Positions 2,336 through 61,389 of a stretch of 64,000 nt of DNA are shown here, piece after piece. The notes under the pieces were generated by a model that searched no databases, was not told the origin of the DNA, and saw only the letters and a program-made list of their open reading frames with translations. Numbering within the stretch: the stretch's first letter is position 1; each line of letters starts with the position of its first letter. The position numbers were made by a program, and so were the translations under genes. The stretch is from Juglans regia (Eukaryota; Streptophyta; Magnoliopsida; Fagales; Juglandaceae). The DNA lies in assembly GCF_001411555.2 (NCBI RefSeq), contig NC_049909.1:19330623-19394622 (forward strand), read 5' to 3'.

Positions 2336-4338
2336 TCTCTTTTTTAAAATTCTTTTATCAAGTTTCCATGACTGCCCTGTTTTCTTGATATTCTCTTTTA
2401 GAACTCTCAATCACATGATCAGTCTTTGCTATGTCATTTCCAGTTCCAATTCTCAAGAGTTCATTTATCTTGTTTATACGATTTCTTTATTCTCAATCAT
2501 ATGCAAAAGTAATAACTTTATTTGCTGCTACAAGCTGGTGTAAATACTAATGCTCGGAGATCCAGATAGTTTCATATGAATTTTGTGTTGGGTTTCTAGG
2601 ACTTTCACATTGGGCTTGGTCAAATATTTATTTTTTCTATATTCTATTAGAATAATTATATTTTATTTTTTTATTATTTTTAACTCATTTCCATTTACAT
2701 TTTAATAACTACTCAGATATTTGTCTCTCCTTATCTTTTTAACTATTAATCTCTAATAAATCTCTCAAAAAAAGGTAATATTTTCAAAATTTATCATTTT
2801 TTAATGATAATATTTTTTTCAAAAATCATATTTTTCCAAATTCTAAAATTTTATAAAAGATCGGATTATCATAAATGACAAACGGAAGGCATGGGAGGGT
2901 GGATATATACAAGCTAAGAGAGAATGAGAAATGCGGGAGGGCAATCTCCAGATCAAATAAACAAATATTTTTTTAAAAAAGGTTTTTGGGGATTTACGGT
3001 ATGGAAAATGATTTACCCACAACACATTGAACAATATATTGTACAACAATGTGTTAAATAAGTGATATATTTGTAAAATCATCTTACAAAGTAAGATGAT
3101 TTTACAAATATATCACTTATTTAACACATTGTTGTACAATGTGTTGTACAAAATATTGTATCTTACGGTATATCCCACAAGGATGGTACTAGTAGCTGGC
3201 GCAGTTTTTTTGGTGTACCGTTAGTATAAATTTATTTTTTATTTTATTTATTTTCTGATAAATAGTTTTTTAATATCTTTAATTATTAAGAAATAAATTA
3301 AAAAATATACAACTTTACTAATAATTATTTTCTTAATCACTAAATAAAAATAATTAAAAAATTAAAATATTCAAACGGTAATATTGAGGGGGCTAAGTAG
3401 CATTTTCAATCCCATAAATGGTGAGTTACTGCAGCAACACCAAAATATATGTGAATAGTAGTGAAATAATTTAAGTTAAGATGTTTTATTAAATTTTGAA
3501 AAAGACAAAATAAAAAATTTAAAAAATTATAAATTTAAAAAATTATTTGAATATAATTTTTTACTATAATTTTTGTTTTAAAATTTAAAAAAGTTATATT
3601 ATTTCTTGTGTTTTGCTTAGGAGTTTGAAAAAATTGTGATGATTAGATAATAATTAGATGAAAAATATAAAAAATTTGAAATGGAAAATGTTTTATTTTT
3701 GACTTATAATGGCAAATAAAATATTTGAAAATATTAAATAATATCTAAAAGTAATTTGATTATAGTTGTTTACGTGGGCCCTTATCTCCCAAAATTAAAC
3801 AATTTTGACTATTATAACGATTAACTTTGATAAGCGGCCAGATGCGAGTGCTCTAACAGACATGATGAACTCTTCCAAAAATGTTAGAATTTGAACACTG
3901 TCGCGTCAAACCCGACGAATAAATCCTAATCTTTGAAGGTGATATATTATATAATATATCTATCTATATAATCTGATAGTTATTAATTACGTCCGTTTTT
4001 AAAGTTATTATCGATCGGTATAGAACTATAAAAAATATATTTTTCTAAAAGCGGTGAAAGATCACATGGATAATTTCTCTCAAATAATTGATAAGAAGTT
4101 GCTACATTTTTCTATATATAATATATATATTTATATATATCCTTCTAGCTTTAAATTAATCTAATAATTTTATATTTTATCAGTACATGTCCATATCTGA
4201 TGAACTAATTGGGAAAAATAAGATAGGACGTACAAAATCTTGGTACGTTTTAGATAATAACAAAACAAAAAGTCCTAAGACTCTTATCCAAGAAGCAAAA
4301 TTTGTATAGCCTATATATATATATATATACTTAATTAT
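2336..4338. repeat. Tandem unit U, copy 1 (truncated)
   Basis: This aligns by eye with 10949-12870 and 23065-24960: the same opening segment, the same AT-rich middle, and the same run of motifs around 3830-4300. It stops where a CACTA end begins, so the part of U that carries the BTB-RNase H gene in the other copies is missing. Compared with U2 and U3 it lacks a short CT-rich stretch near 2620 and has an extra 160-bp foldback element at 3003-3162. It holds no gene. Confidence 0.85.
3003..3162. mobile_element. Foldback MITE, Mutator-like (9-bp TSD)
   Basis: A 160-bp insertion present only in U1. The 9-bp duplication ttacggtat flanks it at 2994-3002 and 3163-3171, while U2 and U3 have a single copy of that 9-mer at the matching empty site. 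The core is a near-perfect hairpin: arms of about 47 bp that meet around a 5-bp loop near 3083-3095, with weaker pairing further out. A 9-bp duplication is typical of Mutator-like elements. It encodes nothing. Confidence 0.78.
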
Positions 4339-4560
4339 CACTACAAGAAAATAGGTCTATTGCGGCGATTTTTGATCTGCTGGGATTAATGTCGCCGCAA
4401 TAAGTCTTTATTCACGGCGATTTCATGATCGACGCGGCTTCCAACCGGTGCGTATTATTGCCGCTTTTTTGCTGCGATTTTAATAATATTTGCGGCGAAA
4501 ATTTTCGCCGCAAATATTATTTTTGATTTTGCAGCGACTTTAGTGATAGTTGTGGCGATG
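4339..4560. mobile_element. CACTA (EnSpm) transposon terminal fragment
   Basis: It begins with CACTACAAGAAAATAG, the usual plant CACTA terminus, and carries several subterminal GCGGCGA / TCGCCGC motifs in both orientations. These are the kind of repeats to which CACTA transposases bind. Only one end is present; I found no matching terminus further right. On the left it replaces unit U at the point matching 12870, and on the right it joins Copia RNase H sequence matching 16789. It is therefore a scar or filler at a deletion of about 3.9 kb. Confidence 0.72.
4482..4521. repeat. Perfect 40-bp palindrome
   Basis: Two 20-bp arms with no spacer, centred between 4501 and 4502 (aaaa|tttt), each containing GCGGCG or its complement CGCCGC. 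It lies inside the CACTA end and consists of two head-to-head subterminal motifs. Perfect palindromes of this size can extrude as cruciforms and are breakage-prone. Confidence 0.95.
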
Positions 4561-8083: not shown

Positions 8084-10948
8084 AGAGGATCAAGGACCGA
8101 CAATCACCAGCTGCCAAGAAAAATTGGGAAGAGATTCCCAAGTCTCGTCACACGACCCGGGCCGCACTAGAGTTGAAACAATGGATTCCTCGTCATCGCT
8201 CAGATTGATGACCAGGGGAGCAACCTCCGTCATGATCCGAACCGAGGCAGGGGAAGCTTTGGGAACCGGATCCTCATCATTATCGCCCCTAACACTCCAC
8301 CCTTCTTTGTCTTGAAGGGGAGACCCGCCAGGCCCCTCCTCAGGGCTTCCAGTTTCGAAGGGACCAGGCTCTGTCTCCCACAATCCCGGTTCGCGCATGG
8401 AGTCACAATCGTCACAGCCTCATCCTGGGAAACATTTGTCTTGGCAGGAATTTCAGAGGGGCTTGGTACAGGGGCCAGCTCGTTGCCCCCAGAACTGAAG
8501 GCCGGCGAAGTGCTCCTCACCCCCTCACAAGGCCTGGATCCTGGGAAGGCATCGTCTCCCTCGTCTCCACTTCCCTCGGAGACTGGATTTTTGAAAGGAG
8601 GTAGCTCGGCCGTTCGTAGCCTGGTCGACGAGTTGTCTCGAGCAGACACAGCAACAGTCTCCTCCTGGAGAGTGTCCTCGAAGAAGGAGAAGGTTGTAAA
8701 TGAGTTCGGCTTGTGGGGAGAAGGATGCGCCAAAGAGGCAAAAAAGGCTGCCTGAAGGTAGCAAGCCTCCAAGTCTTCTTCAAAGTGAGGCAGCGGGCTT
8801 TGAGAGGGCTCCGCGACGAGGGAGCTGGTGGAGGCAGAAGGACCGTCGGCAGAAACTGGGCCCCTCGGGAAGGAGGTGGTCCCCCATGACGAGGGGGCCG
8901 GAGCATCCACTTGGGTATATCCCTGCTGCTGAGACGAGCGGGTGAGCACTCCCGACCCTCCAACTCGGCTCGCGGGTGGAGTAGAACCCCTAGCAACGTT
9001 GCTTGGTGGCGGAGAGTAGTGCCGCACCCGAGGCCGCTTGGCCTGACCACAGGAAGGGCGTGCGGCTCTCTTCCGGCGAGGGGGGCAGACGTATGGAGGG
9101 GGGACACTGCCCAAAAAATTCCTTCCGACAGCGTACAAGCGATTGGGGGACGACAAGTAGCCGTGGATGTTTTCGTCGGAGAGAACGACATCAGTATTCG
9201 ATTCTCTGGGATGAGCCCTCACCTAGGCCGTAACCAATTCGTATCGGGCCTCCTCCCGTCTGTTGAGGGTAAGCTCTAAGCTCTCGGTTGACGGAGGGTA
9301 CCCCCAACTTGCCTGGACGGGGAACTCTTGGTGAGGGGCCTCCCCTTCATGGTACTCCCAGCCCGAGCCGGACACGAAAAAGAACTTGCGCGACCACTCT
9401 TTGATACTCGAGTGACGCTGCTCGAGCGAAGCTATCTTGCGAGTAGAAGATAGGACTTGGAAGTTGACAATGTTGCCCGGGCGGTAGACGAGCCGATACG
9501 TATAGAAGAATTCCCTTGGCATCAAGTTGGGATATTCTTCGGAGGTCTTGCTTAGCACCATCTTGTAGATAATGCAACTGGAGATCAAAAGGCGCCACGC
9601 ATTGGGGTGCAGCTATGCCGGGGCCAACCCGAGGAAGTTCAAGACTTCTCGCACAGGGCAGTAAAACGGGAGGCGAAGGCCGTTGGCGAACATCAACTGG
9701 AACAAAGCAACCCTCATCGTAGTGCTGTCGGAACCCATTAGGTGTTCACACAGTGGCATCTCCAAAACCACGGAGGAGGGAATTCTGTACTTAGAGCGAA
9801 ACGTCCTAAGGTCAGCACCAGTAACGAAGGATACCCAACGCCTCCCCCTAAAGAGCGGAGTAGCGACGTCCATGGAAGCCATCGAGTGTGCGAGGAGAAG
9901 GCTGTTGAACGAAAGGAAGTGAAGAAGGAGAGAGTGGCTGGGAAACTAAGAGCGAAGGGAGAAGATGAAGCAATAGGCGGGAAGGCAAAGGTAGAAGGAA
10001 TGAAGACAGGGGGGATGAACGACTTAAATAGCGAAGAAACAGGTAGGAGGAAGCTCGGGAAGCGAAGCGACAGCAGGGTCAGTGACGTCCGATAGTGCCA
10101 TGCGGCGCAGATGGCCGTCGGAGGGGTGAAACAATACAAGACACGCACCAGAAAGGTGTCAGGATAGTTAGAGGTGCAGTCCGCACGTCTCATCAAGCCT
10201 CGAGAAGCAGGACGGTTACAGGGGCAAAGAGATGCATTTACTAACCCTCGGGAACGGGGAGCTGCCTACGCTTCTCATCAGCCCTTGGGAAGCCGAATCG
10301 GCAGACACTGAGCTGTCTCCAAGAAGCAGTAGGAGAAGACCCGAAGCGACGGGGATCAAAGGAGCCGACCAGAATGAGGAAGGCTAGAATTCCCACCATG
10401 TGTCCGTAGTAGAAATTCGCGGAGTACTGTAAGGGAAGGCCCACTCCCATAGGGCCCATGTCTAAGAAAGCCAAGGCCCATTTCCGAAGGGCCCAAGCCA
10501 AGGAAGGCTGAACCACAAAGCTCAGGCCCAAGTAGGGAAGCCAAGGACTTGGGGCGAGAGGGTCAAGAAGTCAAGTAAGCGCGAAACCGGTCTATCCGGG
10601 CCTATCAATTCAGGGTCCGGGAGGATAGGGGTCTGCCAAATCAAGTTACCAGGCCAGGTGGGCAACACATCATCATGCCCCCGACCCCAGAGTCCCAAAT
10701 CCCAGGCACGAGCCAACCCATATCGATGTCAGGAAATTCGGCGCACAGTGGAACGTCCCACGAGCCAAGGACGACTGGCCCGCAATCTTACATCTCCTGG
10801 CGTGACAGAGAAATGGTGGCCGCGCAGACGTAGGACAACAAACACGGTGCAATCCCTCGTTAGGCCATAGACTAGCCCCCACTAAGGTGACCGAGAATGG
10901 GTGGTGGCAAGCCTGACATCTGACACGCCACGATCTCTCTCGCATAGA
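8084..10948 (-). mobile_element. Gypsy-type 5' region with gag-like ORF, TE1 copy
   Basis: A GC-rich block directly 5' (in minus-strand sense) of the Copia gag. It contains a leader of about 1 kb (9900-10948) and a gag-like coding region (8230-9882). The same block lies in the same place in TE2 (20311-23064), so the Gypsy/Copia join predates the tandem duplication. TE1 has an extra in-frame segment of about 114 bp around 8473-8585 that TE2 lacks. No Gypsy RT or integrase follows. Confidence 0.75.
8230..9882 (-). pseudogene. PF04195-like gag-type ORF, TE1 (interrupted)
   Basis: The frame starts MASMDVATP at 9882. It shows the pattern of the plant 'putative gypsy type transposon' domain: RIPSSVVLEMP, then NGLRLPFYCPVREVLNFLGL. 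A TAG (CAG in TE2) ends the first piece near 9613. The frame continues from 9588 to a TAG at about 9221-9223, which both copies share, and runs on in frame to about 8230 through a Pro/Ser-rich region. The family is known from non-autonomous plant Gypsy elements; its biochemical role is unclear. It is not functional here as one protein. Confidence 0.6.
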
Positions 10949-13022
10949 ACTCTTTTTGAAAGTTCTTTTATCAAGTTTCCATGACTGCCTTATTTTCTTG
11001 ATATTCTCTTTTAGAACTCTCAATCACGTGATCAGTCTTTGCTACGTCATTCCCAGTTCCAATTCTCAAGAGTTCATTTATCTTATTTATACGATTTCTT
11101 TATTCTCAATCATACGCAAAAGTAATAACTTTATTTGCTGCTCCAAACTGGTGTAAATACTAATGCTCGGAGATCCTGCTAGTTTAATATGAATTTTGTG
11201 TTGGGTTTCTAGGACTTTCACATTGGGCTTGGTCAAATTTTTGCCAAATCTTATTCAAAAATTCTCTCTCTCCTCTTCTTCTTCTTCTTCTATTAATATT
11301 TATTTTTTCTTTATTCTATTAAAATAATTATTTTTTATTTTTTATAATTTTTAACTCATTTCCTTTTACATTTAATTAACTACTCAGATATTTTTCTCTC
11401 TTTATGTTTTTAACTATTAATCTCTAATAAATCTCTCAAAAACGGTAATGTTTTCAAAATTTATCATTTTTTAATCATAATATTTTTTTCAAAAATCATC
11501 TTAATTTTCCAAATTCTAAAATTTTATAAAAGATCGGATTATCATAAATGACAAACGCAAAGGCATGAGAGAGTGGATATATACAAGCTAAGAGAGAATG
11601 AGAAATGCGGGAGGGCAATCTCCAGATCAAATAAACAAATAGTTTTTTTTTTTTTTTTAAATTTTTGGGAATTTACGGTATATATCATAAGGATGGTACT
11701 AGCAGCTTGCGCAGTTTCTATGGCATACCGTCAGTATAAATTTATTTTTTATTTTATTTATTTTCTGTTAAATATTTTTTTAACAATTTTAATTATTAAA
11801 AAAAAATTAAAAAATATATAACTTTATTAATAATCAATTCCTTAATCACTAAATAGAAATAATTAAAAAAATTAAAATATTCAAACGGTAATATTGAGGG
11901 CCGCTAAGTAGCATTTTCAATTCCATATATAAATGGTGAGTTACTGCAGCAATACCAAAATATATGTAAATAATAGTAAAATAATTTAAGTTAGGATGTT
12001 TTATTGAATTTTGAAAAAGACAAGATAAAAAATTAAAAAAATATCATAAATTTAAAAAATTATTTAAATATAATTTTTGTTTTAAAATTTAAAGAAGTTG
12101 TATTATTTTTTATGTTTTGTCTAGAAGTTTGAAAAAATTATGATGATTAGATAATAAGTAGATAAAAAAATCAAAAATTTGAAATGAAAAATATTTTATG
12201 TTTGACTTATGTTGGTAAATAAAATATTTGAAAATATTAAATAATATCTAAAAGTAATTTGAGAATACTTGTGGACGTGGGCCCTTATCTCCCAAAATTA
12301 GACAATTTTGACTATTAGTCAAGCTATAACGATTAACTTTGATAAGCGGCCGGATGCGAGTGCTCTAACAGACATGATGAACTCTTCCAAAAATGTTAAA
12401 ATTTGAACACTGTCGCGTCAAACCCGACGTATAAATCCTAATCTTTGAAGGTGATATATATTATATATATATATATATATATCTATCCATCTATATAATC
12501 TGATAGTTATTAATTACGTCCGTTTTTAAAGTTATTATCGATCGGTATAGAACTTTAAAAAATATATTTTTCTAAAAGCGGTGAAAGATCACATGGATAA
12601 TTTCTCTCAAATAATTGATAAGAAGTTGCTACATTTTTCTATATATAATATATATATTTATATATATCCTTCTAGCTTTAAATTAATCTAATAATTTTAT
12701 ATTTTATGATCAGTACATGTCCATATCTGATGAACTAATTGGGAAAAATAAGATAGGACGTACAAAATCTTGGTACGTTTTAGATAATAACAAAACAAAA
12801 AGTCCTAAGACTCTTATCCAAGAAGCAAAATTTGTATAGCCTATACATATATATATATACACTTAATTATCATGAAACTTATAATTCCAACGAATTAAAG
12901 GTACAGAGTTCTGATCTCTTTCGCTAGCTCCCTCGTCACTGTGACATCAAAAGGTACAGATCTAGCTAGTTCTCTCTTTCGCTAGCTCCCTCGTTACGTA
13001 CGTACGATATCTGCGTCATCAA

Positions 13023-13253
13023 ATGCTTGATAATATGCTCAAAACTTTCGTAGTCTACTGCAAACAATTGCTAATTGGCTCTTTCAACAAGGTTGTGCCA
13101 TGGAGGCTTCTAATCACGCAGAAAGCTTTCATATTCGGAAGATCATGGACTCCTACTTCTCGTCCAATGGGAGCAACACCGGATTCGATTTCGAGTCCGA
13201 CTCGGACTTCCCATTTTCCGTCAACAACAGCATCTTCTCCGATCGAGTTCTGA
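13023..13253 (+). promoter_or_regulatory. Possible upstream ORF overlapping the chimera start
   Basis: An ATG 77 nt upstream of the main ATG opens a 76-codon frame that overlaps the chimera start in another frame. The same frame is present in copy B (25125-25355). If the transcript includes it, it would be expected to lower translation of the main frame. No TSS is known, so it may lie outside the mRNA. A CTAGCTCCCTCGT segment is repeated just upstream (about 12924-12996). Confidence 0.3.
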
Positions 13254-14774
13254 GGCTTGAGATAATTCCCGATTCGCCCGAGACATACTCGGAAGGCGAA
13301 GGTTGCACGGTCGACACTGCCGAGAAGGTGGAGAACAAGACTGGTACGTACGTAAGAGTTTATCTCACTGCCATGCAATGATACATACTTTTTTTATGTA
13401 TTTCATCGTACGTACGTATATATTATACTATACATATGTATATATATTATATATTTATGTCTATATGGTTCATCGTGTTTATATATATATATATTTTTTT
13501 GATTATGTATAGCATGAATAAATTATATTTATTTTACTGCAGATTCATCTTGGAGCATGGATTGCTCAACTCTTCTTAGCATCAAAATCATACACATAAG
13601 TTCTCCAGTTTTAGCGGCAAAGAGTAAATTTTTTCGTAAGGTGAGGCGCGACGGTTCTAATTCATGTTGTTTAGGGATACGAAATTGATATACGTGTGCC
13701 CAACTTTTAACATAATAATATTTTAAACGAGTGATATTTTTGTAAAATAATTTATAAAATATTAATATCATTTTATAAAAATACCTTCATTTTAAAAAAT
13801 AATAATCTTGAGATATCCATTAATTAATGGATATCCATTAATTAAACTTTTTTCTCTTGACATTAGTAGATATAAAAAAATCTATTCATCATTCTATTTT
13901 TCATCATCTTCTCCTAATCTCACGGTCTATTTTTATTGACTCGTTGGTTTCCTACGCCTTTTGCAGCTGTTTTCAAATGGCATGATCAAAGAGTCAAACC
14001 AGCGCCATGTAACTCTACGGATGCATGCATCTGGTAATGATCACACAGTACTCTTTCTTTTTCTTTTTCGTTCCAGTGCTTGTTCAAGATAGCTCGGCTT
14101 TTTGCATGTGTTTGTGTAGGCGGTAGCTTCTCTTGATCTTGACATAATACATACTAATAATTACCGTTTCTTATTATCTCACTGGAGCAGAAGCAGCAGT
14201 ACTCGTCGAGATTCTTCATTTTCTGAATAGTAGCATCTTGGAGCCCAAACACAAGAGACCTCTTTTGGTTCGATGGATTCCTCCCTCTTTTGGCAAGTTT
14301 AAGTTAAATGTGGACGGGGCATCCAAGGGTAATCCTGGTTTAGCTGGCTGTGGAGGGGTTCTTAGATCCCATTGTGGCTTCATGTTTGCCTTTTCACGCT
14401 GCTTGGAAGTTGGAACCAGCATCTATGCAGAACTGTCTGCCTTAAAGTATGGCTTGATGACTTGCTATCAACTGAATATAACTCATGAAGTGGTGGTAGA
14501 GACGGATTCGATGTTGGCAGTAAACTGGCTTAAGAATGACACACGGCCTCCTCAGCAATATTCTGATCTCTGGGAAGATATCTTGCAACTTCACAATCAC
14601 TTGTCTTGTGAGGTCATCCACGTATATCGGGAGGGGAATCATCTGGCTGATGGACTTGCAAATTATGGAGCAGCAGGAAATGATGCATCATTCTCTTACC
14701 TGTCTCAACTTCCCAAACATTTATTGGCAACTTTTGCACTTGATAGAGCTGGAGTTCCATGCCTTCGACAATAG
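13100..14774 (+). CDS. Chimeric BTB (LRB/POB1 front half)-RNase H gene, copy A
   Basis: Four exons: 13100-13343, 13543-13640, 13967-14033, 14191-14774. All introns are GT-AG, with phases 1, 0 and 1. They join to 330 codons plus TAG with no internal stop. Residues 1-153 match the POB1/LRB gene at 31354: the FSDRVLRLEIIPD block, then MDCSTLL..HISSPVLAAKS..F, LFSNGM and RHVTL of the BTB fold. LRB exon 2 (acidic linker) and most of the 5' part of LRB exon 3 are absent. At 14240/14241 the LRB-like sequence stops inside an exon, and a LINE-type RNase H (RVT_3) follows in frame. Its acidic residues D178, E217, D242 and D290 are present in the motifs LNVDGASKGNPG, YAELSAL, VETDS and HLADGLAN. BACK and C-terminal LRB domains are missing. 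An AATAAA is near 14865. Function is unknown; a protein that binds BTB partners and carries nuclease activity is inference. Confidence 0.78.
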
Positions 14775-15047
14775 TACTTTGTGATCTTTGTTCATGATGT
14801 ATATACATTGGATGTATAACTTGATGTAAGGATGGTTTTCCTCAACCAAAAATGAGGGTACTTCAATAAAAATGAAGTAGTTCTATAATTTTTTATTTTT
14901 ACTTTTAAAAATGAACTACACTTATAATTTGTCAAGAATGACGGCGCTGATCTAGTTGTGATGTGAGAAATGTATCATCCATTAATGATCTCTCTCCACC
15001 TTCAGACTATATTATATATGACATTGAGCTAGCCGATCGAAATGGGT

Positions 15048-16400
15048 TGTGTAAGAAAGCACAGTGGAAAAATACTTCAAGCTCAGCTTATAAAATTGCT
15101 CCACAAATTCTTCCAGATTGACAAATCTCCAACGTTTCCTTTTAGTGGTGAAGTGTACTACATAATATAAAATTATAGTAACACTTACAAATCCACAACT
15201 TAAATATCTTATCAAGAGAAAACAAAAGAGAGAGAGAGAGCTTTTTCTGTATTTCAAATGGTTCAAAAAACCAATTGGGGAGGACTATATATAGTCCACC
15301 TACACACGGCTGGCCTTCAAGGCCAACCATTGCAACGGTATGTAACGTATGTCATTAAGCCATCCGTTACAAGTCAAGTAACGTATGGCTTAATGCCATA
15401 CGTTACTACAACCTGAAGGGAGGGGTTCAGCCCACGTGGGGCGCCCCTCCTACCCTCCTGCTAACATCTCTCACTCGCACACATTGGGCATGACCCCAGG
15501 TCTATATCTCTATAATGTTCTCAATCTTGTTCATACAAATAAATAGGACGTGCGACCACCAAGCACATTTATAGAAAGGTAGGAGTACATACACCAAATC
15601 TCTCCCAGAGAAGACCAGCATAGTAACATCCCTAAAGTGTCCGGTCATGTCCTAGACTCATTCGATCGCATCAAGATCAAGCATTTTCGAACCCTCTTGA
15701 GTTAAAAAAAAAAATTCAAAACAATGTTTGACTACTTCCAAATAATTTCAATGTGTTCACAACCTTAGCGTCATAGTTTGACATCAGCAAACACAATTGA
15801 AGATACGATATCGAAGAATCTTTCCTTTGCACTCATATCACTCAATTTTGGTTGAACTGCTTTCCCAGCAATGCGTCTTTAGCCCGTATCAATCATGGTC
15901 ATAGACAACATGCCAAAGTAGCGGACATCATAACCTCTATTTCGTGACATAGTCAAAAGTAAATGACATTTTAAAAAAATGAGACTCACATAGTGAGAAA
16001 GAGGGGAACCTTTTACTCACTTACTCATATGGTCATATAAGTACATGTAGTATAAAACACATGCTACGGTGGATTTCTCTTTTTCAAAGAGCATATGTCT
16101 ATATCAACACCGTACAGATCTTAGTCTAGCCGCTCCTTAAGCGTCTAACCAGAATTCTTCTATTTGCACGCCTCAATGGCGTCAAAGAGGAACTCGCATC
16201 TAGCTAACTACAGGCTACATGGATGGTGGGAAAATCCATGCATAGTCCTATCAATGAACCTCATCTTAGCCCCCACTAAGGCAACATAACTTTGTGTCAA
16301 CCAATTTATACATTTGGACAAGTACCTAGGGACACAATGTCTCATCTCTACTTGCTACTTAAGCGCTAGAGACGATCGCTTGTGTGAGTGAGCCGATCTA
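15048..16400 (-). mobile_element. Copia 3' terminal region / LTR, TE2
   Basis: It begins (plus sense) with TGTGTAAGAAAGC exactly where unit U stops. Read on the minus strand it therefore ends ...TTACACA, as an LTR should. It lies just downstream of the Copia RNase H and holds no coding sequence. The internal boundary could not be fixed: I see no second LTR in the composite to compare with, because the Copia 5' end is replaced by Gypsy-type sequence. The length of up to 1.35 kb is approximate. Confidence 0.6.
15342..15406. repeat. Twin 29-nt hairpins in the LTR
   Basis: Two adjacent 29-nt inverted repeats at 15342-15370 and 15378-15406. The second has perfect 12-bp arms (gtaacgtatggc / gccatacgttac) round a 5-nt loop. 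The first has the same GTAACGTATG..CGTTAC plan with a few mismatches. They share sequence, so one arose from the other. They may be protein- or RNA-level signals of the element. Confidence 0.85.
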
Positions 16401-16526
16401 AGCCTGTTGACATATCTTTTGTGTGTATTAGAAAAAAAATACGATAAAGACAAGAACTGAATCATATTGTATTAATATCCCAAAGGAAATGTTACATCTT
16501 AATGTCATTTGAAACATAAATTACAT

Positions 16527-17060
16527 TTACAGTTTACGCAGTCCTAAATTCCTAACATGAGCTTCAAAGACATCTCTTACAATAGGCTTCATTAAGGGAT
16601 CAACAACCATGCAACTCGTAGAAAGGTGTTTCAGAACCACTCCCTTTTGCGCTACCATGTTTTTGATGTTGTGATATCTGATATCTATGTGTTTGGTTCT
16701 TCTATGATACTTTGAGTCCTTAGCATATGCGAGAGCTGTCATGCAATCGCAGAATATCATCTCCGGATCTGAAGTATCCGTGCCAATATCTAAATGCTTG
16801 AGGAACCTCTGTAACCAAACAGCTTCTTGAACTGCTGCAGAACAAGTTATGTATTCTGCTCCCATGGCGGATAAAGCTATACAGGATTGTTTCTTAGTAC
16901 TCCATGCAATGGCGCCTTTGTTGAGTAGAAAGACATTCTCAATGGTTGATTTGCGCTCTTCTAGATCACTGCTCCAATCAACATCACTGTAACCTCTTAG
17001 CTGCAAATCTGAACTCTGATAGCACAACACATAGTCCACAGTTTCCTTGAGATATCGCAT
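16527..17060 (-). pseudogene. Copia RNase H domain, TE2
   Basis: The minus-strand frame contains the Copia RNase H landmarks: GYSDVDWSSD, ALSAMGAEYI, DCMTALAYAKD and HRRTKHIDIRYH. This is the C-terminal part of Copia Pol. It is separated from the RT frame (17249-18223) by a degraded stretch with a stop and a short deletion near 17165 relative to TE1, so no continuous Pol can be made. This RNase H is unrelated in sequence to the one fused to the BTB gene in U2 and U3. Confidence 0.88.
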
Positions 17061-17248
17061 AATCCTCTTACCTGTTTTTCAGTGAGCTAGTCCAGGATTA
17101 GATTGGAATCTACTCACTAAGCCAACTGTATAGTATATGTCTAGCCGAGTACACATCATTGCAGAGTATCCACAACATTAGCATAAGGGACACAAGTCGT
17201 CTTTTCCTTTTCTCTTTGAGTCTTAGGACACAACTCTTTGGACAAATT

Positions 17249-18223
17249 CTAGCTTCTTGCAACATGGGTGTCAATGGATTTACATCCATTCATTAGGAAG
17301 CGCTCGAAAACTTTCTTTATGTAAGTTTGTTGGGACAAATACAAAAGTCTCTTTGAGCGATCTCTGTAGATCTTAACTCCCAAAATGTATTCTACCTCAC
17401 CCATATCATTAATCTCAAAATTGAAGGATAACCATTCTTTTGTGGCGACTATCAACCCTTTATCATTTCCAGCTAATAGTATGTTGTCAACATACACTGA
17501 CAACATAATGAAACTCTTCTTGAACCTTTTGACATAGACACAATGGTCCTCTGTGATCATCGTAAACCCATTCGAGAGAATGGCTCGATGGAATCTGAGG
17601 TACCATTGTCTAGATGATTGCTTTAGGTCATATATAAATCGTTTGAGCTTGCACACTTTGCACTCTTGACCTTTGACCACAAAACCCGTTGGTTGATCCA
17701 TATAGATCTCCTCATCTAGTTCTCCATTGAGAAATATTGTCTTAATGTCCATATGATAAATTTTCAAATCCATGTTTGCTACTATAGCTAAAATTAGGCG
17801 AATTAAGGCAAACGTCACCACTGGTGAAAATATTTCCTCATAGTCTATACCCTCCTGTTGGATATATCCTTTCACCACTAAGCGAGCTTTGTACATATCT
17901 ATTGATCCATCCAACTTGCGTTTGACCTTAAGAACCCATTTGTTCCCAATAGTCTTACGCATTGTCGGTAGATCAACCAGATCCCAAACCTGGTTAGCCT
18001 TCATAGACTCAATCTCATCATTAAGAGCTTTCATCCACTTATCTTTATTAAAATATGAGAGAGCCTCATGAATTGTCCTATGCTCGTCATCATCATGCAG
18101 AGCTACCATAAAAGTTTCCCCTTCAATCTCAAAACAATGACGGAGAGTACTTTCATGTGTGCTTCTACGCAGCTGAGGTTGTTGTAATTGATTGACAAGT
18201 AGTGTGCTCCCACTTGGATTCAA
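17249..18223 (-). pseudogene. Copia reverse transcriptase, TE2
   Basis: A 324-codon frame with the Copia RT landmarks: WVLKVKRKLDGSIDMYKARLV, QQEGIDYEEIFSPVV, MDIKTIFLNGELDEEIYM, LKQSSRQWYLRFH and the active-site strand. The strand reads YVDN rather than YVDD (in SVYVDNILLAGND), so a catalytic Asp is lost. The N-terminal part holds the linker between integrase and RT. It is more intact than in TE1, but the altered active site and broken neighbours make it non-functional. Confidence 0.88.
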
Positions 18224-18256
18224 ATCCTTTTTATAATTTGTAAGAGTTTGAAGAAT

Positions 18257-19173
18257 TTATTCATTATTCTCAACTAAATTCCTTGAAGCACTTTCTTCTT
18301 GTTCCACAATCTCATGAAGTTCTAAACTCCTATCAACCTCATCTCTACTTGGAAACTCATTTTCAATAAAATCCACATCTCGTGACTCAATCTCGGTCAA
18401 ACTTCCATCAGATTGTTCACCTATCAACACATACCCTTTAGAGTGTTCTGAGTACCTTATAAAGGTACACTTCTTCCCTTTAGGGCCTAACTTCTCATAC
18501 TTATTAGAAATATCGTGAACAAAACCCATTGAACCTCATGGTCGCAAGTTACTCAAATTGAATTTCTTGTCGGTCCATAGTTTATATGGGACGGAAGTTA
18601 CTAATTTGGAGGGTACTCGTTTAAGAATGTAGGCAGTAGTAAAAAATGCATCCCCCAAAAAGAAATTGGTAGGTTTGCTTGTGTCATCATTGACCTAACC
18701 ATCTTAAGCAGAGTTCGATTTCTCATTTCCGCCATGCCATTTTGCTGTGGCGTAATCGACATCGTCAACTGTCTTTTGATTCATTTTTCATCACAGAATC
18801 TTTTAAATTGCTCAGGGAGATATTCTCGTCCTCAGTCAGTTCTTAGAGTTTTTAAACTCTTGTCTAACTGATTCTCAACCATTCTTAGAAATCGCCTAAA
18901 ACATTTCAGTGCTTTAGACTTATGGGAGATTAAGTAAACATGACCGTAATGTAAAAAATCATCTATAAATGTGATGAAGTAGACACCTCCGTATCTTGCC
19001 CTCACACTCATTGGATCATAGATGTCTAAGTGGACTAATTGCAGTGGAAACGATGCCTTAGTGGCTTTTCCAAACGGTTTTCTCTTAATTTTTTCCATTA
19101 GACAATATTCACATGTGGGCAAGATGACATTAGCAAGATTTCCTGTAGGACCTTCTCTAGCTAACCGAGCCAT
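18257..19173 (-). pseudogene. Copia integrase region, TE2 (fragmented)
   Basis: Two open pieces, 18832-19173 and 18257-18529, are joined by a degraded stretch. The first has the CEYCLM part of the HHCC zinc site, the core motifs VHLDIYDPM and TFIDDFLHYGHVYL, and ends at LKTLRTD. The second matches the Copia integrase C-terminal region (GPKGKKCTFIRYSEHSKGYV). Stops between them break the DDE domain. Confidence 0.8.
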
Positions 19174-19206
19174 TCTATCTTACTTTATATGGTCAAGTCT
19201 AGCATG

Positions 19207-19893: not shown

Positions 19894-20003
19894 ATAGACC
19901 GTATGATTGGGCTTAGCAGCCTTTAGGCACTCAGCCTACATTTCCAAGTAACGCGAGACATCATCAAAGTGTTTAATATTCTCGTTATGCGTCATGTTCT
20001 GGC

Positions 20004-20306: not shown

Positions 20307-20310
20307 AGAG

Positions 20311-24548: not shown

Positions 24549-24587
<39 letters not shown>

Positions 24588-27137
24588 ATCCATCTATATA
24601 ATCTGATAGTTATTAATTACGTCCGTTTTTAAAGTTATTATCGATCGGTATAGAACTATAAAAAATATATTTTTCTAAAAGCGGTGAAAGATCACATGGA
24701 TAATTTCTCTCAAATAATTGATAAGAAGTTGCTACATTTTTCTATATATAATATATATATTTATATATATCCTTCTAGCTTTAAATTAATCTAATAATTT
24801 TATATTTTATCAGTACATGTCCATATCTGATGAACTAATTGGGAAAAATAAGATAGGACGTACAAAATCTTGGTACGTTTTAGATAATAACAAAACAAAA
24901 AGTCCTAACATTTATCCAAGAAGCAAAATTTGTATAGCCTATACATATATATATATACACTTAATTATCATGAAACTTAATTATAATTCCAACGAATTAA
25001 AGGTACAGAGTTCTGATCTCTTTCGCTAGCTCCCTCGTCACTGTGACATCAAAAGGTACAGATCTAGCTAGTTCTCTCTTTCGCTAGCTCCCTCGTTACG
25101 TACGTACGATATCTGCGTCATCAAATGCTTGATAATATGCTCAAAACTTTCGTAGTCTACTGCAAACAATTGCTAATTGGCTCTTTCAGCAAGGTTGTGC
25201 CATGGAGGCTTCTAATCACGCAGAAAGCTTTCAAATTCGGAAGATCATGGACTCCTACTTCTCGTCCAATGGGAGCAACACCGGATTCGATTTCGAGTCC
25301 GACTCGGACTTCCCATTTTCCGTCAACAACAGCATCTTCTCCGATCGAGTTCTGAGGCTTGAGATAATTCCAGATTCGCCCGAGACATACTCGGAAGGCG
25401 AAGGTTGCACGGTCGACACTGCCGAGAAGGTGGAGAACGAGACTGGTACGTACGTAAGAGTTTATCTCACTGCCATGCAATGATACATACTTTTTTTATG
25501 TATTTCATCGTACGTACGTATATATTATACTATACATATGTATATATATATTATATATTTATGTCTATATGGTTCATCGTGTTTATATATATATATATTT
25601 TTTGATTATGTATATCATGAATATATTATATTTATTTTACTGCAGATTCATCTTGGAGCATGGATTGCTCAACTCTTCTTAGCATCAAAATCATACACAT
25701 TAGTTCTCCAGTTTTAGCGGCAAAGAGTAAATTTTTTCGTAAGGTGAGGCGCGACGGTTCTAATTCATGTTGTTTAGGGATACGAAATTGATATATGTGT
25801 GCCCAACTTTTAACATAATAATATTTTAAACGAGTGATATTTTTGTAAAATAATTTATAAAATATTAATATCATTTTATAAAAATATCTTCATTTTAAAA
25901 AATAATAATCTTGACATATCCATTAATTTGACTTTTTTTATCTTGACATTAGTAAATATAAAAAATCTATTCATCATTCTATTTTTCATCATCTTCTCCT
26001 AATCTCACGGTCTATTTTTATTGACTCGTTGGTTTCCTACGCCTTTTGCAGCTGTTTTCAAATGGCATGATCAAAGAGTCAAACCAGCGCCATGTAACTC
26101 TACGGATGCATGCATCTGGTAATGATCACACAGTACTTTTTCTTTTTCCTTTTCGTTCCCGTGCTTGTTCAAGATAGCTAGGCTTTTTGCATGTGTTTGT
26201 GTAGGCCGTAGCTTCTCTTGATCTTGACATAATACATACTAATATATAATTACCGTTTCTTATTATCTCACTGGAGCAGAAGCAGCAGTACTCATCGAGA
26301 TTCTTCATTTTCTGAATAGTAGCATCTTGGAGCCCAAACACAAGAGACCTCTTTTGGTTCGATGGATTCCACCCTCTTTTGGCAAGTTTAAGTTAAATGT
26401 GGACGGGGCATCCAAGGGTAATCCTGGTTTAGCTGGCTGTGGAGGGGTTCTTAGATCCCATTGTGGCTTCATGTTTGCCTTTTCACGCTGCTTGGAAGTT
26501 GGAACCAGCATCTATGCAGAATTGTCTGCCTTAAAGTATGGCTTAATGACTTGCTTTCAACTGAATATTACTCATGAAGTGGTGGTAGAGACGGATTCGA
26601 TGTTGGCAGTAAACTGGCTTAAGAATGACACACGGCCTCCTCAGCAATATTCTGATCTCTGGGAAGATATCTTGCAACTTCACAATCAATTGTCTTGTGA
26701 GGTCATCCACGTATATCGGGAGGGGAATCATCTGGCTGATGGACTTGCAAATTATGGAGCAGCAGGAAATGATGCATCATTCTCTTACCTGTCTCAACTT
26801 CCCAAACATTTATTGGCAACTTTTGCACTTGATAGAGCTGGAGTTCCATGCCTTCGACAATAGTACTTTGTGATCTTTGTTCATGATGTATATACATTGG
26901 ATGTATAACTTGATGTAAGGATGGTTTTCCTCAACCAAAAATGAGGGTACTTCAATAAAAATGAAGTAGTTCTATAATTTTTTATTTTTATTTTTAAAAA
27001 TGAGCTACACTTATAATTTGTCAAGAATGACGGCGCTGATCTAGTTGTGATATGAGAAATGTATCATCCATTAATGATCTCTCTCCACCTTCAGACTATA
27101 TTATATATGACATTGAGCTAGCCGATCGAAATGGGTT
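23065..27137. repeat. Tandem unit U, copy 3 (complete)
   Basis: The third copy of the unit, collinear with U2 (offset near 12.1 kb). It has the same AT-rich left part, a longer TA microsatellite near 24550-24585, and the second BTB-RNase H gene. At 27137 it runs into unique sequence instead of the Copia terminal region, so it is the right edge of the array. Confidence 0.9.
25202..26863 (+). CDS. Chimeric BTB (LRB/POB1 front half)-RNase H gene, copy B
   Basis: Same four-exon plan as copy A: 25202-25445, 25646-25743, 26052-26118, 26280-26863. Exon lengths are identical (244, 98, 67, 584 nt), and the join gives 330 codons plus TAG without a stop. By eye the coding parts differ from copy A at about eleven sites. 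Five change an amino acid (H/Q, K/E, V/I, Y/F, H/Q) and about six are silent. The RNase H acidic residues D178, E217, D242 and D290 are all kept. Introns keep GT-AG despite indels (26 bp or so shorter in intron 2). The 3' end again resembles a LINE tail with AATAAA near 26955. Retention of the frame in both copies suggests a working or very young gene. Transcription is not shown. Confidence 0.78.
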
Positions 27138-31353: not shown

Positions 31354-34300
31354 ATGAGGGACTCGAATACGGACCTATTTGATCCCTGCTCGACCACGGA
31401 GTCGGACTTCCCTCCGAATGGGCTTGCCACTGGGTCCGGGTCAGACTCGGACTTCGCTTTCGCCTTCAACGACAGGAATTTCTCCGATCGGGTCCTGAGG
31501 ATTGAGATAATCCCTGATTTTCCCGAGATAAAATCGGACGGCGAGGGTTGCATCAGCGTCGCTGATTGGGCCCGCAATAGGAAGAGACGGAGGGAGGAGA
31601 TTAAGAATGAGACTAGTAAGAGAGTTTCTTTTATCTTTCTGCAATGTCTTTCCTTTTCGTGTTATTGGTTATTAATTTGATCGTTCGTGCAATTGGGGTC
31701 TATTTGGCTACCTAGAAAATAAAGGATTTAGAAGGAAACTTTTGTTATTTTCCTTTTTCTGTTGTTTTGGGTTTGAATCATTGATGGAAATAGGTACTCA
31801 TAATACACCCACCTCTTCATACAACCTCTTGGTACCTGACCTGAAATTTGGGGGTTTTGTGTGGTGGAAATGTTAGGATTTTAGATGAATTTTCAATTTT
31901 TGTTTGAGGCCTTTAGGGGTGATAGAAGAAAGATTAGGTTTGATAGTTTGATGGTGATAGTTCCACAAGAGACTTCTATTTTATTGTGGTTGGATCACTT
32001 TACTGCCCCGACTATAGTGGCAACTGCATAATATACCATGTATGGAAGTTATTCAACCCTTCCTCCTGTAGTTTTCAATTCCAAAAAGCCAACTATGCTC
32101 AATGAGTTTTGTACCCTTCTCATTGGGTGAAACTCATTTTGGTGTCAGGACAATAGTCTTAGAGGTAATTTTGGTCTAGCTCTCTTGGCCTGTGTCCGTA
32201 TCGAACTCTGATCCTTTCTTTTGAGTGAATCCATTGTGCAAATTATATATCTGCTGTAAACCATGAACCGTGTGCTAGAAATCATGTCTAATGGGATTTT
32301 AACTTTAATATGGATGAATTAATTCACATATAGCAGTCCTGTGTACTTGGGCTACACCTATTTTTTAGTATCAACCAAATTTGTTTTCCTATTAAAAAAA
32401 ATTAATTTCATGTGTATTAGAATTTTTGTGGGCGATGATTGAACATGTATTCATTTATCCCTTAATACCATTTCTTTCAATATTGCAACTTCTAATACTT
32501 CTTGCCCTTACCTTGGCTTATCTTTGTATCATCTTTTCAACTGCCGCACTGATAATGCAGGTTTAGACTCCTGGGAATATCAACAACTATACTTATTTGA
32601 AATATATTTTCTATTTTGACTTTAGTGTTGGATATCCTTGTGCAACACGAGGCGCAGATTCTAAATTGTAATGTGCCAGAAACAGTGGATGGTTTGGGCT
32701 ATGGAAATCAAGATGAGGAAGCTGTGGCAATGATTGAGGAAGTACCTTTAGGTGTTGATATTAATTTGAATCAACATGGTACGTCTTTTATTCCCTTTTA
32801 TTATGATTTGCTTTATTTAAATTCATGAAGGACTCCTATTGTGGTTATATGGAGAATTGATTATGACTATCGTGCAAATTACAAATCTGTGTTCTTTCTG
32901 TGTTTTTTTATTTATCTAGAAATGTTCTTTTCACCCTTACATAAGGAGAATATGAAGCATTGCTTTGTCTATTACTTGTTATCTGCCTCATGGTTTTTTA
33001 TAGGGTTTCTGAGAATTTTGTTATTTTGTGTGTGTGTGTGTGTGTTTTTTTTTTAATTTTCGTAGTGTTTATTTTATGGGCTATAAAGATGTTAGAAAAG
33101 TAGTTTGGACCTAGAATTAAGTAGTGGCATGGCCAAGCCATCTCATAATTGGAATAGTAAAAAAGAACTAATAATTTTATTGAAAAGGAATACTTTTTGG
33201 CTGATTTGGCAACCCTAGCTTTTAGAGATGCAACCTTTAGTTTAAGACACCTTTTCCCAAAAACATGCTGCCAGCTTTTATTTAGAAGGGGAGTTGTTTA
33301 GAAGTCCGTCATAAAGTAAAATAAAATCCTGTTAGGAGTAGGATTTTTATTCTTCCGCCAACCCTGTTTTTTAGCCACAGACCCTAGAATTTAGGCCTCC
33401 TTTTTTTTTAGAACTTGCTGTCAGATTTTCCTAGAGATTTTAGGAGCTTTTCTGTATTTTCTATTATGAAACCAAGTCCTATAAGGAGTTCATACCTTTT
33501 TTTTTTAGTCAACTTTGATGTAGATCAAGAAAACCCCACATTTTCTTATAAATTGGAGCCTAACCCCTATTATTTCATGTAATACCTCGTATTGTGTTTA
33601 GAAAGATGGTGAATGAGATCCCACATTACTTGGAAGGGAGACGTTCAAGCCCTTTATAACGATTCCAATGGGCTCAAATTGTAACATTGACTGGTCGGAG
33701 TATAGGCCCATATATGGCTTGGGCCTTTCTTGGTTCTTACAATCCTATCCTTAACGAGAAGGGGGTGTTGCAGCTACTTACATGCTTAGCATGTAAATTT
33801 ACATATATGCATGTATATGATGGTAGTATATAATTTTATTGATAGTAATTGATAGTCATATGGAAATGAGTGTTTGGACCACAGACTTCGGGAGGGAGGA
33901 TCAGGTGTTGTTTGCAAGCTTGACATGGAGAAGGCGTACGATCATGTGAACTGGGAATTTCCCTTATACTTGCTTGAGAGGTGTGGTTTTGGGGTTAGAT
34001 GGAATTCATGGATGCGTCATTGTATTTCCACGGCCCAATTCTCAGTTCTAGTCAACGGCACACCTGCTGGTTTTTTTGATAGTTCACGGGGTTTGCGGCA
34101 GGGAGATCCTCTATCCCCACTTTTATTTGTTATAGTTATGGAGGCGCTAAGTAAGATGATGCAGGCTGTTGTTGGAGGAGGGTTTTTAGCTGGTTTTTAG
34201 GTGGGCAATGGCTCTGGTGGCCCTATTATCATTTCACATCTTCTTTTTGCAGATGATACTTTAGTCTTCTGCGAAGCGATAATAGCCAAATTCAAACACT

Positions 34301-37300
34301 ACGAGCATTGCTACTTTGCTTCGAAACAGTGTCAGGGCTCAAGGTGAATCTAGGTAAGTCTGAAATGGCTCCTGTGGTTGTGATTGCTAATATCCTCAGT
34401 TTAGCAAGCCTACTGGAATGTAAAGTGTCTTCTTTTCCAATGAAATATATGGGCCTTCCGTTGGGAGCAACGTTTAAGAATAGAGCTATGTAGGATGGGG
34501 TGGTGGAGAAGATAGAGAAAATGTTGGCTGGATGGAAACGGGTATATTTATCAAAAGGGGGTCGCCTCACTCTTATTAAGAATACACTCACTAACCTCCC
34601 CACATATTTTCTATCTCCCACATATTTTCTATCTTTGTTTTCTATGCCTGCAGGGGTGGTAAATAGGATGGAGAAATTATTTAGGGCATTCTTATGGGGA
34701 GGCATGAGGGAGGAGAAAAAATTTCATTTGGTTAGATGGAAAACAGTTTGTGTCTCAGTTGTGAATGGAGGATTGGGAGTGTGTAACTTGAGGACTTTTA
34801 ATAAAGCTTTATTGGGAAAATGGCTTTGGAGATATCACTTGGAGGAGGGAGCATTGTGGAAGGAAACTGTTGATGCTAGATATGGCGTCGCTAGGGGAGG
34901 GTGGTGTTCCAATGAAGTAAGAGGGGGATATGGTGTGGGTTTATGGAAGTTTATAAGGAAGGGGTGGCCATGCTTTGTAAATCAAATCTGTTTTGTAATT
35001 GGTGAGGGCGATCGAATAAGTTTTTGGCGGGACATGTGGTGTGGAGATCAAACTTTGGAAAGGGCTTTTCCGGCTCTATATCGTATTGCAGTTAATAAGG
35101 AGGCGTCAGTAGCGGAAGTGCGACTATTTTCTCATGGCTCGTATCAGTGGAACATTCTCTTTAGTAGGGATTTATATGACCGAGAATTATCTATTGTTGC
35201 AGATTTTTTCAGTTTACTATATTCTACAAGGATCCCTATAGCACAACGTGATCGTTTGAAATGGAGATCTAACAATCACAAGTTATGCACAGTGAAGGCG
35301 TATTATAACATCTTGACATCTCAAGATAATACTCCATTTCCTTGGAAGAATATTTAGAGGTCTCGTGTGCCTTCTAGAGTAGCCTTTTTTGTTTGGAGTG
35401 CCGCCCTTGAGAAGATATTGACCACGGATAACTTGAGAAAGAAAGGATGTGTAGTCATGGAGTGGTGCTACATGTGTAGAAAGAATTGAGAATCGGTGGA
35501 CCATCTCTTACTACATTGTGAGGTAGCAAGGGCGTTGTGGGATGGGATCTTTCAAAGGGTTGATTTAGCTTGGGTTATGCCTATGAGGGTGGTGGACCTG
35601 TTGGGTTGTTGGAGGAAGATGCAAGGTTGTCATCAAGTGGCAATGGTATGGAAGATGATTCCGTCATGGATCATGTGGTGTATTTGGACGGAAAGGAATG
35701 CACGCTGCTTTGAAGATAAGGAACGCACGCTGGCCGAGTTGAAGAAATATTTGTTCCACACATTATTGTTTTGGCTTTCCGCCATTGTATTGCAGGGGGG
35801 CAATGTTCATGATTTTTTGTCTTTAATTTATCGCACGTAGAATGTATTTAGGTGTTCTTCCGTATACTTCCTATGTACATGGGCTATGCTTATTTCATTC
35901 ATATATATAATATTGATCTTTTACTTATCAAAAAAAAAAAAAATTGATAGTCATATGGTTTTCACTCGGTTAGATTCTTTGTAGATGATGAAGCTGGACC
36001 TAGTAATGATTCATCATTGAGCATGGACTGCTCGACAGTGTTGAGAGTCAAAACATTACACATAAGCTCTCCAATTTTAGCCGCAAAGAGTCCATATTTT
36101 TATAAGGTGAGGGCTCTTTATCTGGTTATGCTGCCTTTGTTCTCTTTTGTTCCTTGGATATTTTCGTTCATTTATTGATTGCATGCCTCTGTAGTTGTTT
36201 TCAAATGGCATGAGAGAGTCAGAGCAGCGACATGTAACTCTACAGATACATGCATCTGGTAATTACCAGCCTTCATTAGCTTTTATTGTCCACTTATTCT
36301 TATTTTGGTCTATTCTCATATTAAATTATGAACTTTCAATCTCCTTTGAAAATGGTCTGGGTTTCAAAGTCGCATTTTGTTGTTCCTGTTTTTGGTTTTA
36401 GCATTATCACTATAAACCAGTCCCACTTCTTATCCCTTTTTGTGCACATGTGTGCATCTATGCTTTTCTGTTTACAAGACAACTATTAATTAATTACTGT
36501 TTCTTTCCTATTATGTCACTGGAGCAGAAGAAGCAGCCCTCATGGACCTTCTTAATTTTATGTACAGTAATACGTTGTCAACAACTACATCTGCTGCTTT
36601 GTTGGATGTGCTGACGGCTGCTGATAAATATGAGGTTGTGTCATGTATGAGATATTGTAGCAGGTTATTGGGGAACTTGCCAATGACTCGCGAATCAGCA
36701 TTGCTATATTTAGATCTTCCTTCTAGTGTTTTAATGGCTGATGCAGTCCAGCCATTGACTGATGCAGCAAAACGGTTTCTTGCTGCGCACTATAAAGACA
36801 TAACTAAGTGAGTCTTTCTTCTGTGCTTTCTTCTTTCTTGCTTTGCTTAATTTGTGGAGCTCCTCTTTGGTTTTCATGTTCATATGGTAGAATTTTGTTT
36901 GAGCCTATTATTATTTGGACATGTGATATTTTCTTTTCCTCTCTTTACTGATTTTGTCAAGAATTAGAATAGTTGATCGATCTTGTGAACCGCCTGCCTT
37001 TTTTGTAGACTACAAATATAATATTCCAATTTCAGTTATAGTGACACGAGGGCCACAGATATTAGAAAGCAATTAATGGTTTGCATCATTTTCCAGGTCT
37101 CATGATGAGGTGTTGAACTTGCCCCTAGCCGGTGTTGAGGCTGTATTGTCCAGTGATGATCTCCAGGTGCCTTCAGAGGATATTGTTTACGACTTTGTGC
37201 TGAAATGGGCTCGTAAAAACTACCCAAAACTTGAGGAACGAAGAGAGATCCTTGGCTCACAACTTGGTTGCCTTGTCCGTTTTCCATACATGACCTGCCG

Positions 37301-37910
37301 AAAGCTAAGGAAGGTTTTAACCTGCAATGACTTTGATCCTGAACTGGTATCAAAGGTCGTGCGCGAGGCTCTCTTTTTCAAGGCTGAGGCACCATACCGG
37401 CAGCGTTTTCTTGCTGCAGAGGAGGCCAGTGCCAGCTGTAGGCGATACGTGGAGCGGGCATACAAATATCGCCCTGTCAAGGTGGTCGAATTTGAACTAC
37501 CTCGTCAGCAGTGTATTGTTTACCTGGACCTGAAGCGGGAGGAGTGTGCACATCTGTTTCCGGCTGGTCGGCTTTACTCACAGGCTTTTCACCTCGGTGG
37601 GCAGGGGTTTTTCTTGTCAGCCCACTGCCACATTGACCAACAAAGCTCATTGCACTGCTTTGGGCTATTCTTGGGGATGCAAGAGAAGGGACCAGTCAGT
37701 TTTGCCGTTGACTATGATTTTTCAGCGAGGTGTAAGCCATCCGAGGAGTATGCGAGCAAGTACAAAGGAAATTATACTTTCACTGGAGGGAAGGCTGTTG
37801 GATATCGCAATCTGTTTGGAATAGCATGGACTGCATTCATGGCTGATGACAGCCTCTATTTCATCAACGGTATCCTCCATCTAAGGGCTGAGCTCACAAT
37901 CAGGCAATGA
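31354..37910 (+). CDS. BTB/POZ-BACK protein of the LRB/POB1 family
   Basis: Six exons: 31354-31615, 32626-32778, 35985-36106, 36195-36258, 36528-36807, 37097-37910. All introns are GT-AG, and the join gives 564 codons plus TGA. The product matches plant POB1 (LIGHT-RESPONSE BTB), substrate adaptors of nuclear CUL3 ubiquitin ligases that act with phytochrome B and PIF3. Landmarks: N-terminal NTDLFDP and [25 protein letters not shown] (basic, NLS-like, about residue 70), acidic linker, BTB at about 150-250 ([24 protein letters not shown]), BACK at about 290-400 ([23 protein letters not shown]), C-terminal [16 protein letters not shown] and [13 protein letters not shown]. Length is near the family norm of about 560. 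Intron 2 is 3.2 kb because a LINE sits in it. The splice junctions are intact, so the gene is probably functional. Confidence 0.93.
33864..35942 (+). mobile_element. 5'-truncated LINE (L1-type) in intron 2 of POB1/LRB
   Basis: It ends in an A run (35930-35942) and is flanked by the 16-bp duplication attgatagtcatatgg at 33848-33863 and 35943-35958. It encodes the C-terminal part of a [34 protein letters not shown] and [10 protein letters not shown] zf-RVT region follows ([19 protein letters not shown], then [17 protein letters not shown]). At least a TAG at 34198, a frameshift near 34290, a TAG at 34491 and later stops kill the frame. An eight-residue direct repeat ([11 protein letters not shown]) is near 34610. 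It is on the sense strand of the host gene and has no RNase H domain. Confidence 0.93.
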
Positions 37911-61380: not shown

Positions 61381-61389
61381 TTCTTCTTG

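Follow-up and report, generated by a model that had tools for sequence, protein, structure and literature searches.

The walnut (Juglans regia) genome carries what is probably a chimeric, domesticated gene, in which a duplicate of POB1 was joined to the RNase H of a LINE and whose predicted product is a small RNase H acting on RNA:DNA hybrids. The DNA analysed (the window) was a stretch of 64,000 nucleotides, positions 19,330,623 to 19,394,622 of contig NC_049909.1 (hereafter C9), and holds a tandem array with 12.1-kb spacing in which two fusion genes are intact, the second at 25202-26863. A third copy was found on contig C3. An initial annotation had described a gene running here in frame from POB1 into an RNase H; that this gene is real and maintained is supported by the retention of the catalytic residues and by an omega of 0.34 for the RNase H part.

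Architecture and copies of the fusion gene

The four exons of copy 1 have GT-AG borders and join to 993 nt (330 aa plus stop) without an internal stop codon, in full agreement with the 330-codon frame first read across three introns (Table 1). Exon-by-exon alignment with the POB1 gene at 31354-37910 assigned the first ~153 residues to the POB1/LRB family (POB1 and LRB being one family), which likewise bore out the homology that had been claimed for exons 1-3 and the first 50 nt of exon 4; DNA identity in the matched stretches was 78-86%. POB1 coding exon 2 (32626-32778) is absent from the fusion gene. Outside the exons there were just two matches between copy 1 and POB1, one comprising the bases before the exon-4 acceptor and the other an AT-rich, reverse-strand match from intron 2. 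At the 3' end, the first ~80 bases of the copy 1 3' UTR were alignable with the C3 copy; by eye, no poly(A) run remains after this UTR and no target-site duplication was found flanking the LINE piece. Intron 2 contains a dispersed repeat of ~100 bp (13701-13806) that matches many chromosomes, in several places on both strands, a pattern that would fit a foldback element. The 268 bp 5' of the start codon (12832-13099) differ between the tandem copies by one base and a small length difference, and constraint on a promoter or 5' UTR in this region is possible.

Table 1. Coordinates within the window of the fusion gene copies, their flanks and the adjoining POB1 gene
Feature	Position	Strand	Remarks
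First unit of 12.1-kb tandem array	2337..4340	+	upstream flank alone, without a fusion gene
Upstream ORF, 76 codons	13023..13253	+	out of frame, overlaps the main start codon; in both C9 tandem copies
Fusion gene copy 1, exon 1	13100..13343	+	ATG at 13100; POB1 exon 1 homologue, without the POB1 basic run ARNRKRR in the alignment
Fusion gene copy 1, exon 2	13543..13640	+	BTB domain begins here; homologous to POB1 coding exon 3
Fusion gene copy 1, exon 3	13967..14033	+	BTB; homologous to POB1 coding exon 4
Fusion gene copy 1, exon 4	14191..14774	+	~50 nt of POB1 coding exon 5, then LINE RNase H (RVT_3) up to the stop codon
POB1/LINE junction, copy 1 exon 4	near 14244	+
Copy 1 3' UTR	14775..14880	+	resembles a LINE 3' end (by eye, against printed LINE tails); AATAAA at 14865-14870
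Fusion gene copy 2, exon 1	25202..25445	+
Fusion gene copy 2, exon 2	25646..25743	+
Fusion gene copy 2, exon 3	26052..26118	+
Fusion gene copy 2, exon 4	26280..26863	+	end of BTB plus RNase H
Intact POB1/LRB gene	31354..37910	+	family of the fusion 5' half
POB1 coding exons (about)	31354-31615, 32626-32778, 35985-36106, 36195-36258, 36528-36807, 37097-37910	+	last two borders by eye

The product of the C3 copy is identical to an annotated Juglans regia protein (P0001; F2P56_007124 / LOC109020418). This copy shares with the two C9 copies the four-exon structure, the missing POB1 exon, the junction and the splice positions, and the fusion therefore arose once, before the C3 and C9 copies split. 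The four-exon frame is open in all three. Searches of the genome by protein (150 candidates scored from 6667) and by DNA (40 from 873) found these three fusion copies and no others; the rest of the scored DNA matches were to the short intron 2 repeat, to pieces of the C3 copy and, in one case, to a short part of intron 1. No close match to the C9 copies was found among the annotated proteins of the collection searched, the best hits being P0001 (60-69%) and P0002 (72%). P0002, a 189-aa Logan entry that spans exon 4 alone and is 86% identical to the C3 copy, was the only relative found beyond the walnut assembly in protein searches that considered the best 120 of 420, the best 120 of 1098 and all 38 matches; candidates were proteins of 0.55-1.75 times the query length, a range that places long LINE proteins outside its scope.

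The C3 copy was considered as a genome-duplication partner of the C9 locus and rejected in this role. It is more likely a transposed copy, because the POB1 partner of C9 by dS lies on C2, not C3, and no gene-level synteny was seen between 110 kb around the C3 copy and 154 kb around C9 (the latter with a 622-base gap). Besides the fusion gene, the two surroundings shared short, mostly recurring matches and a few longer weak ones (e.g., 64% over 632 bp).

Provenance of the two halves

Acquisition of an archaeal-type RNase H by plant L1 elements was reportedly described by Smyshlyaev et al. in 2013. The RNase H half of copy 1 is a complete domain (RVT_3 by Pfam, residues 176-295, 69.3 bits), as the initial annotation had read it, and the residues named there (D178, E217, D242 and D290) form, along with R283, an active-site set that is invariant in all four aligned fusion sequences (C9a, C9b, C3 and P0002). 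An arginine equivalent to R283 is typical of archaeal-type RNase H by the criterion given in PMC5348765, which also reports that some plant non-LTR elements acquired such an enzyme (aRNH). The AlphaFold2 model of the exon-4 product has an RNase H fold (mean pLDDT 91.6, pTM 0.84), and a profile search against solved structures placed RNases H on top (e.g., 4e19, 3hst and 3aly; best E 3e-28), 3aly being the archaeal-type RNase H of Sulfolobus according to the same paper (PMC5348765).

Of 6667 candidate RNase H matches in the genome, 150 were scored; such matches are plentiful, and many sit in long frames of LINE type. All of the next-best five after the three fusion copies contain stops, against none of the three fusion copies. 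We refer to these five as LINE tails on the basis of their sequence and of the A-run that follows the 3' UTR in each (with 7 A only in one), rather than from an upstream reverse transcriptase. A tree of RNase H sequences (29 in all) comprised, besides the fusion copies and P0002, 11 other genomic places (the next-best five plus six picked from the rest with open frames of 716-1388 aa) and 14 database RNase H proteins picked from the search lists. The fusion copies and P0002 formed one clade (support 95), which joined the five LINE tails of the walnut genome (support 94; monophyly of the tails alone, 65). Within this 29-sequence sample there is no closer LINE. Because the clade groups with five tails that each end in an A-run after the 3' UTR, the RNase H piece most likely stems from the 3' end of a LINE that carried an RNase H of archaeal type. 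Root-to-tip distances, summed by hand from the newick file, were 0.24-0.46 for the fusion copies and P0002 vs 0.74-1.06 for the five tails. Constraint on the C3 copy may be relaxing, because three one-codon insertions in its RNase H part are without counterpart in the C9 copies or P0002, and its branch is longer than that of P0002 (0.113 vs 0.052).

Only about half of a BTB domain remains in the product: the Pfam match in copy 1 (residues 88-152, 27.3 bits) covers profile positions 12-75 of 110, and the domain is cut after ~65 residues. In the C3 product BTB falls below Pfam detection. No credible match to the POB1 tail (the rest of BTB, BACK and the C-terminal part) was found in window positions 12000-31000 or in 20 kb around the C3 copy, the best having E 0.048 and containing stops. 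The four genome matches to the BTB-BACK exon were the POB1 genes on C9, C2, C12 and C7, and the last POB1 exon matched those same genes plus one short, stop-bearing fragment on C5. A model of the full C3 protein was unusable (mean pLDDT 45); the underlying alignment included 16 POB1 proteins, but the RNase H part was represented in it by no more than two sequences. LRB1/2 are described in PMC13075204 as substrate adaptors of CUL3 ligase. It is unlikely that the fusion product is a CUL3 adaptor. The POB1 part was more likely the donor of a start codon and 5' exons, since half of its BTB and all of BACK are lost and the product of the C3 copy falls short of a BTB match.

Constraint, age and competing readings

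Codon comparison of C9 with C3 gave a dS of 0.51 overall (0.55 for the RNase H part and 0.47 for the BTB part). For the RNase H part (176 codons) the codon model returned an omega of 0.338, with an LRT of 24.4 (p 7.9e-7) vs omega 1; NG86 gave 0.317 (bootstrap 0.20-0.52). The codon models were run with our own likelihood code, and IQ-TREE gave the same RNase H value, 0.338. The BTB part had an NG86 omega of 0.84 (bootstrap 0.55-1.41), and when POB1 was included in a codon model of four sequences (113 codons), the pooled fusion lineages had an omega of 0.62 (p 0.08); split by lineage, omega was 0.30 for C9 (p 0.023, uncorrected for several tests) and 0.88 for C3. These values indicate that the RNase H part is under purifying selection since its capture and that the BTB part is weakly constrained; in the C9 lineage, some constraint on the BTB part remains. 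Between the tandem copies there were 11 coding changes (6 synonymous, 5 nonsynonymous; omega 0.235, one-sided p 0.019) and no coding indels. In their non-coding alignment, 1158 sites showed 19 changes, and there were 38 gap columns.

Frame and splice sites were assessed separately. When the C9 sequence was evolved neutrally, the 330-codon frame remained stop-free in none of 2000 runs at d 0.5 and in 3 of 2000 (0.15%) at d 0.25; the result was less striking for the BTB half alone, which stayed stop-free in 1.25% of runs at d 0.5 and 6% at d 0.25. The C9 and C3 copies differ in length by 96, 3 and 9 nt in exons 1-3, each a multiple of 3, and by 18 nt in exon 4, which is a multiple of 3 by construction (the exon is read to its stop). 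All 12 splice-site bases are kept between C9 and C3, with a chance of ~0.004 at d 0.5 and 0.06 at d 0.25.

The last exon of POB1 gave dS values of 0.40 for C9-C2 and 0.41 for C12-C7, with 1.27-1.55 for the other four pairings, and we infer that these two are probably the pairs left by the Juglandoid genome duplication. That event is placed at 66 million years, with a rate of 2.5e-9 per year, in PMC6431679. The fusion gene and the neighbouring POB1 split at a dS of 0.43-0.64, depending on region. Both this split and the one between the C9 and C3 fusion copies (0.51) are as old as those pairs or older. Because the dS errors overlap, all that is claimed is that the fusion would date from around the duplication of the walnut-family genome or earlier; the RNase H part looks to have been held intact for tens of millions of years.

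Taken together, a POB1 duplicate lacks one internal exon and all that lies beyond ~50 nt of coding exon 5, where its frame runs on into what is most likely a LINE 3' end with an RNase H of archaeal type. The fusion is now present in two tandem C9 copies and one C3 copy of like structure, and since their split the RNase H has been kept by purifying selection. Transcripts would start from a promoter derived from POB1 and be spliced along the four exons, the POB1 part presumably providing mainly the promoter, start codon, 5' exons and splice sites, and the product may cut, or at least bind, RNA:DNA hybrids such as LINE replication intermediates or R-loops. An extended version is put forward as a tentative and somewhat doubtful possibility: a domesticated RNase H, present in walnut and its relatives and captured about or before the 66-million-year duplication (as dated in PMC6431679), might be an active hybrid-cutting enzyme that possibly limits its parent LINE family or clears R-loops.

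Counted against domestication are the lack of a closely matching annotated protein for the C9 copies, the upstream ORF over the start codon, P0002 as the sole further sequence found outside this genome, the possible relaxation of the C3 copy and the less striking open frame of the BTB half. The first two are also what might be seen if the locus were an untranslated relic, a POB1 pseudogene with a LINE tail whose frame is open by chance and awaits decay, and the near-neutral BTB part of the C3 lineage (omega 0.88) would fit as well. This is unlikely, however, given the RNase H omega of 0.34 (p 8e-7), the rarity of stop-free neutral runs (0/2000 at d 0.5, 3/2000 at d 0.25), the stops in all five next-best LINE tails, and length changes that preserve the frame in all three informative exons. 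The codon-level constraint and the frame-preserving length changes are likewise not predicted if the locus works as RNA, its transcripts being processed to small RNAs for the silencing of related LINEs or of POB1; such a role, for which the sequence held in common with LINEs and POB1 and the repeat-rich tandem array might speak, is highly improbable.

Another reading takes the truncated BTB half as the working part, disturbing LRB/POB1 dimers or CUL3 complexes. The C9 region before the junction is still recognised as BTB by Pfam (27.3 bits) and the C9-lineage omega is 0.30 (p 0.023); but the last part of BTB and BACK are absent, the fusion has no counterpart of the POB1 basic run ARNRKRR, the C3 product is without a BTB match, and the test over all lineages was not significant (omega 0.62, p 0.08). 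We regard this reading as improbable. The possibility raised in the initial annotation, binding to BTB partners or interference with LRB dimers, is not supported, given the halved BTB, the loss of BACK, the missing C3 score and the omega of 0.62, and interference with LRB dimers was rejected as the main function, the pooled BTB omega being not clearly below neutral. Also highly improbable is that the RNase H selection signal stems from a mobile-LINE stage, with the C9 and C3 genes having captured their RNases H independently. RNase H matches are abundant enough to provide for this, many of them in long LINE-like frames (150/6667 scored), but the POB1 5' exons, missing exon, junction and splice positions are common to C9 and C3, and their RNases H fall in one clade (support 95) apart from the sampled LINEs.

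Relation to known genes and the surrounding sequence

The probable domesticated gene resembles the aRNH (RVT_3) of plant L1 elements in its domain, D-E-D-R-D set, predicted fold and LINE-like 3' end, and its nearest sampled relatives are LINE tails of the same genome. In contrast to an L1 LINE, it is without a reverse transcriptase, has POB1 exons directly upstream in all three copies, and consists of host exons and introns; three copies were found, and its branches are shorter than those of the related tails. With POB1/LRB it shares the N-terminus, the first half of BTB and the intron positions, and it adjoins a POB1 gene, but it differs in the missing exon, the halved BTB, the absent BACK/C-terminal part and the missing basic run. 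Transposon-derived host genes are well known, and the plant cases found in the literature searched come from transposases. MUSTANG is a domesticated plant transposon gene, and DAYSLEEPER, MUSTANG and ALP1/ALP2 derive from the transposases of DNA transposons. In all of these, as in the fusion, a transposon-derived domain is kept in a host gene, whereas the fusion combines a LINE RNase H with a fragment of a ubiquitin-ligase adaptor. Domesticated transposon genes of plants, DAYSLEEPER and ALP1/ALP2 among them, are treated in PMC3499209, PMC3435246, PMC4671723 and PMC7282668. Among the marks by which domesticated genes are recognised, the fusion shows purifying selection after capture (omega 0.34), loss of mobility and a low copy number (three found). 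A host gene was also combined with RVT_3 in the NLRs with integrated RVT_3 of seven plant species, the host partner there being an NLR; the authors of that report state that they lack evidence that transposon activity played a role (PMC4759884). The open-licence PubMed Central literature searched showed no report of a POB1/LRB-RNase H fusion, in line with the initial annotation, which knew of no described plant protein joining BTB/LRB with RVT_3.

If the gene was kept over a time comparable to that since the walnut genome duplication, the LINE RNase H would be another part of a retrotransposon to have been recruited. The case also shows how a retrotransposon domain can obtain a start codon, exons and perhaps a promoter from the damaged copy of a regulatory gene, and the decayed related LINE tails in the same genome serve as built-in controls.

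Several features of the surrounding sequence were recorded. In the last exon of POB1, omega was 0.33 for the C9-C2 pair, twice that of the C12-C7 pair (0.16), and the C9-C2 branch of POB1 therefore evolves faster. The intron after POB1 coding exon 2 contains a LINE piece on the + strand (33848-35958) with reverse-transcriptase-like frames (by eye). It is bounded by the 16-bp direct repeat ATTGATAGTCATATGG, at 33848-33863 and at 35943-35958, and an A-run precedes the second of these; no RNase H was found in this piece with the P0001 and P0002 queries. Beside the fusion genes, the tandem array (2337-27137) contains retrotransposon sequence on the - strand, with RVT_2 and gypsy-type Transposase_28 matches. 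When two units of the array were compared in 250-base steps, the retrotransposon part (8582-11081) differed by 3-8% and the gene region from 12832 on by 0-3.3%. Farther downstream, a Copia-type element with long open frames occupies 59885-63564 on the - strand, with gag, integrase and related domains identified by Pfam in 61393-63564 and reverse-transcriptase and RNase H frames seen by eye in 59885-61389.
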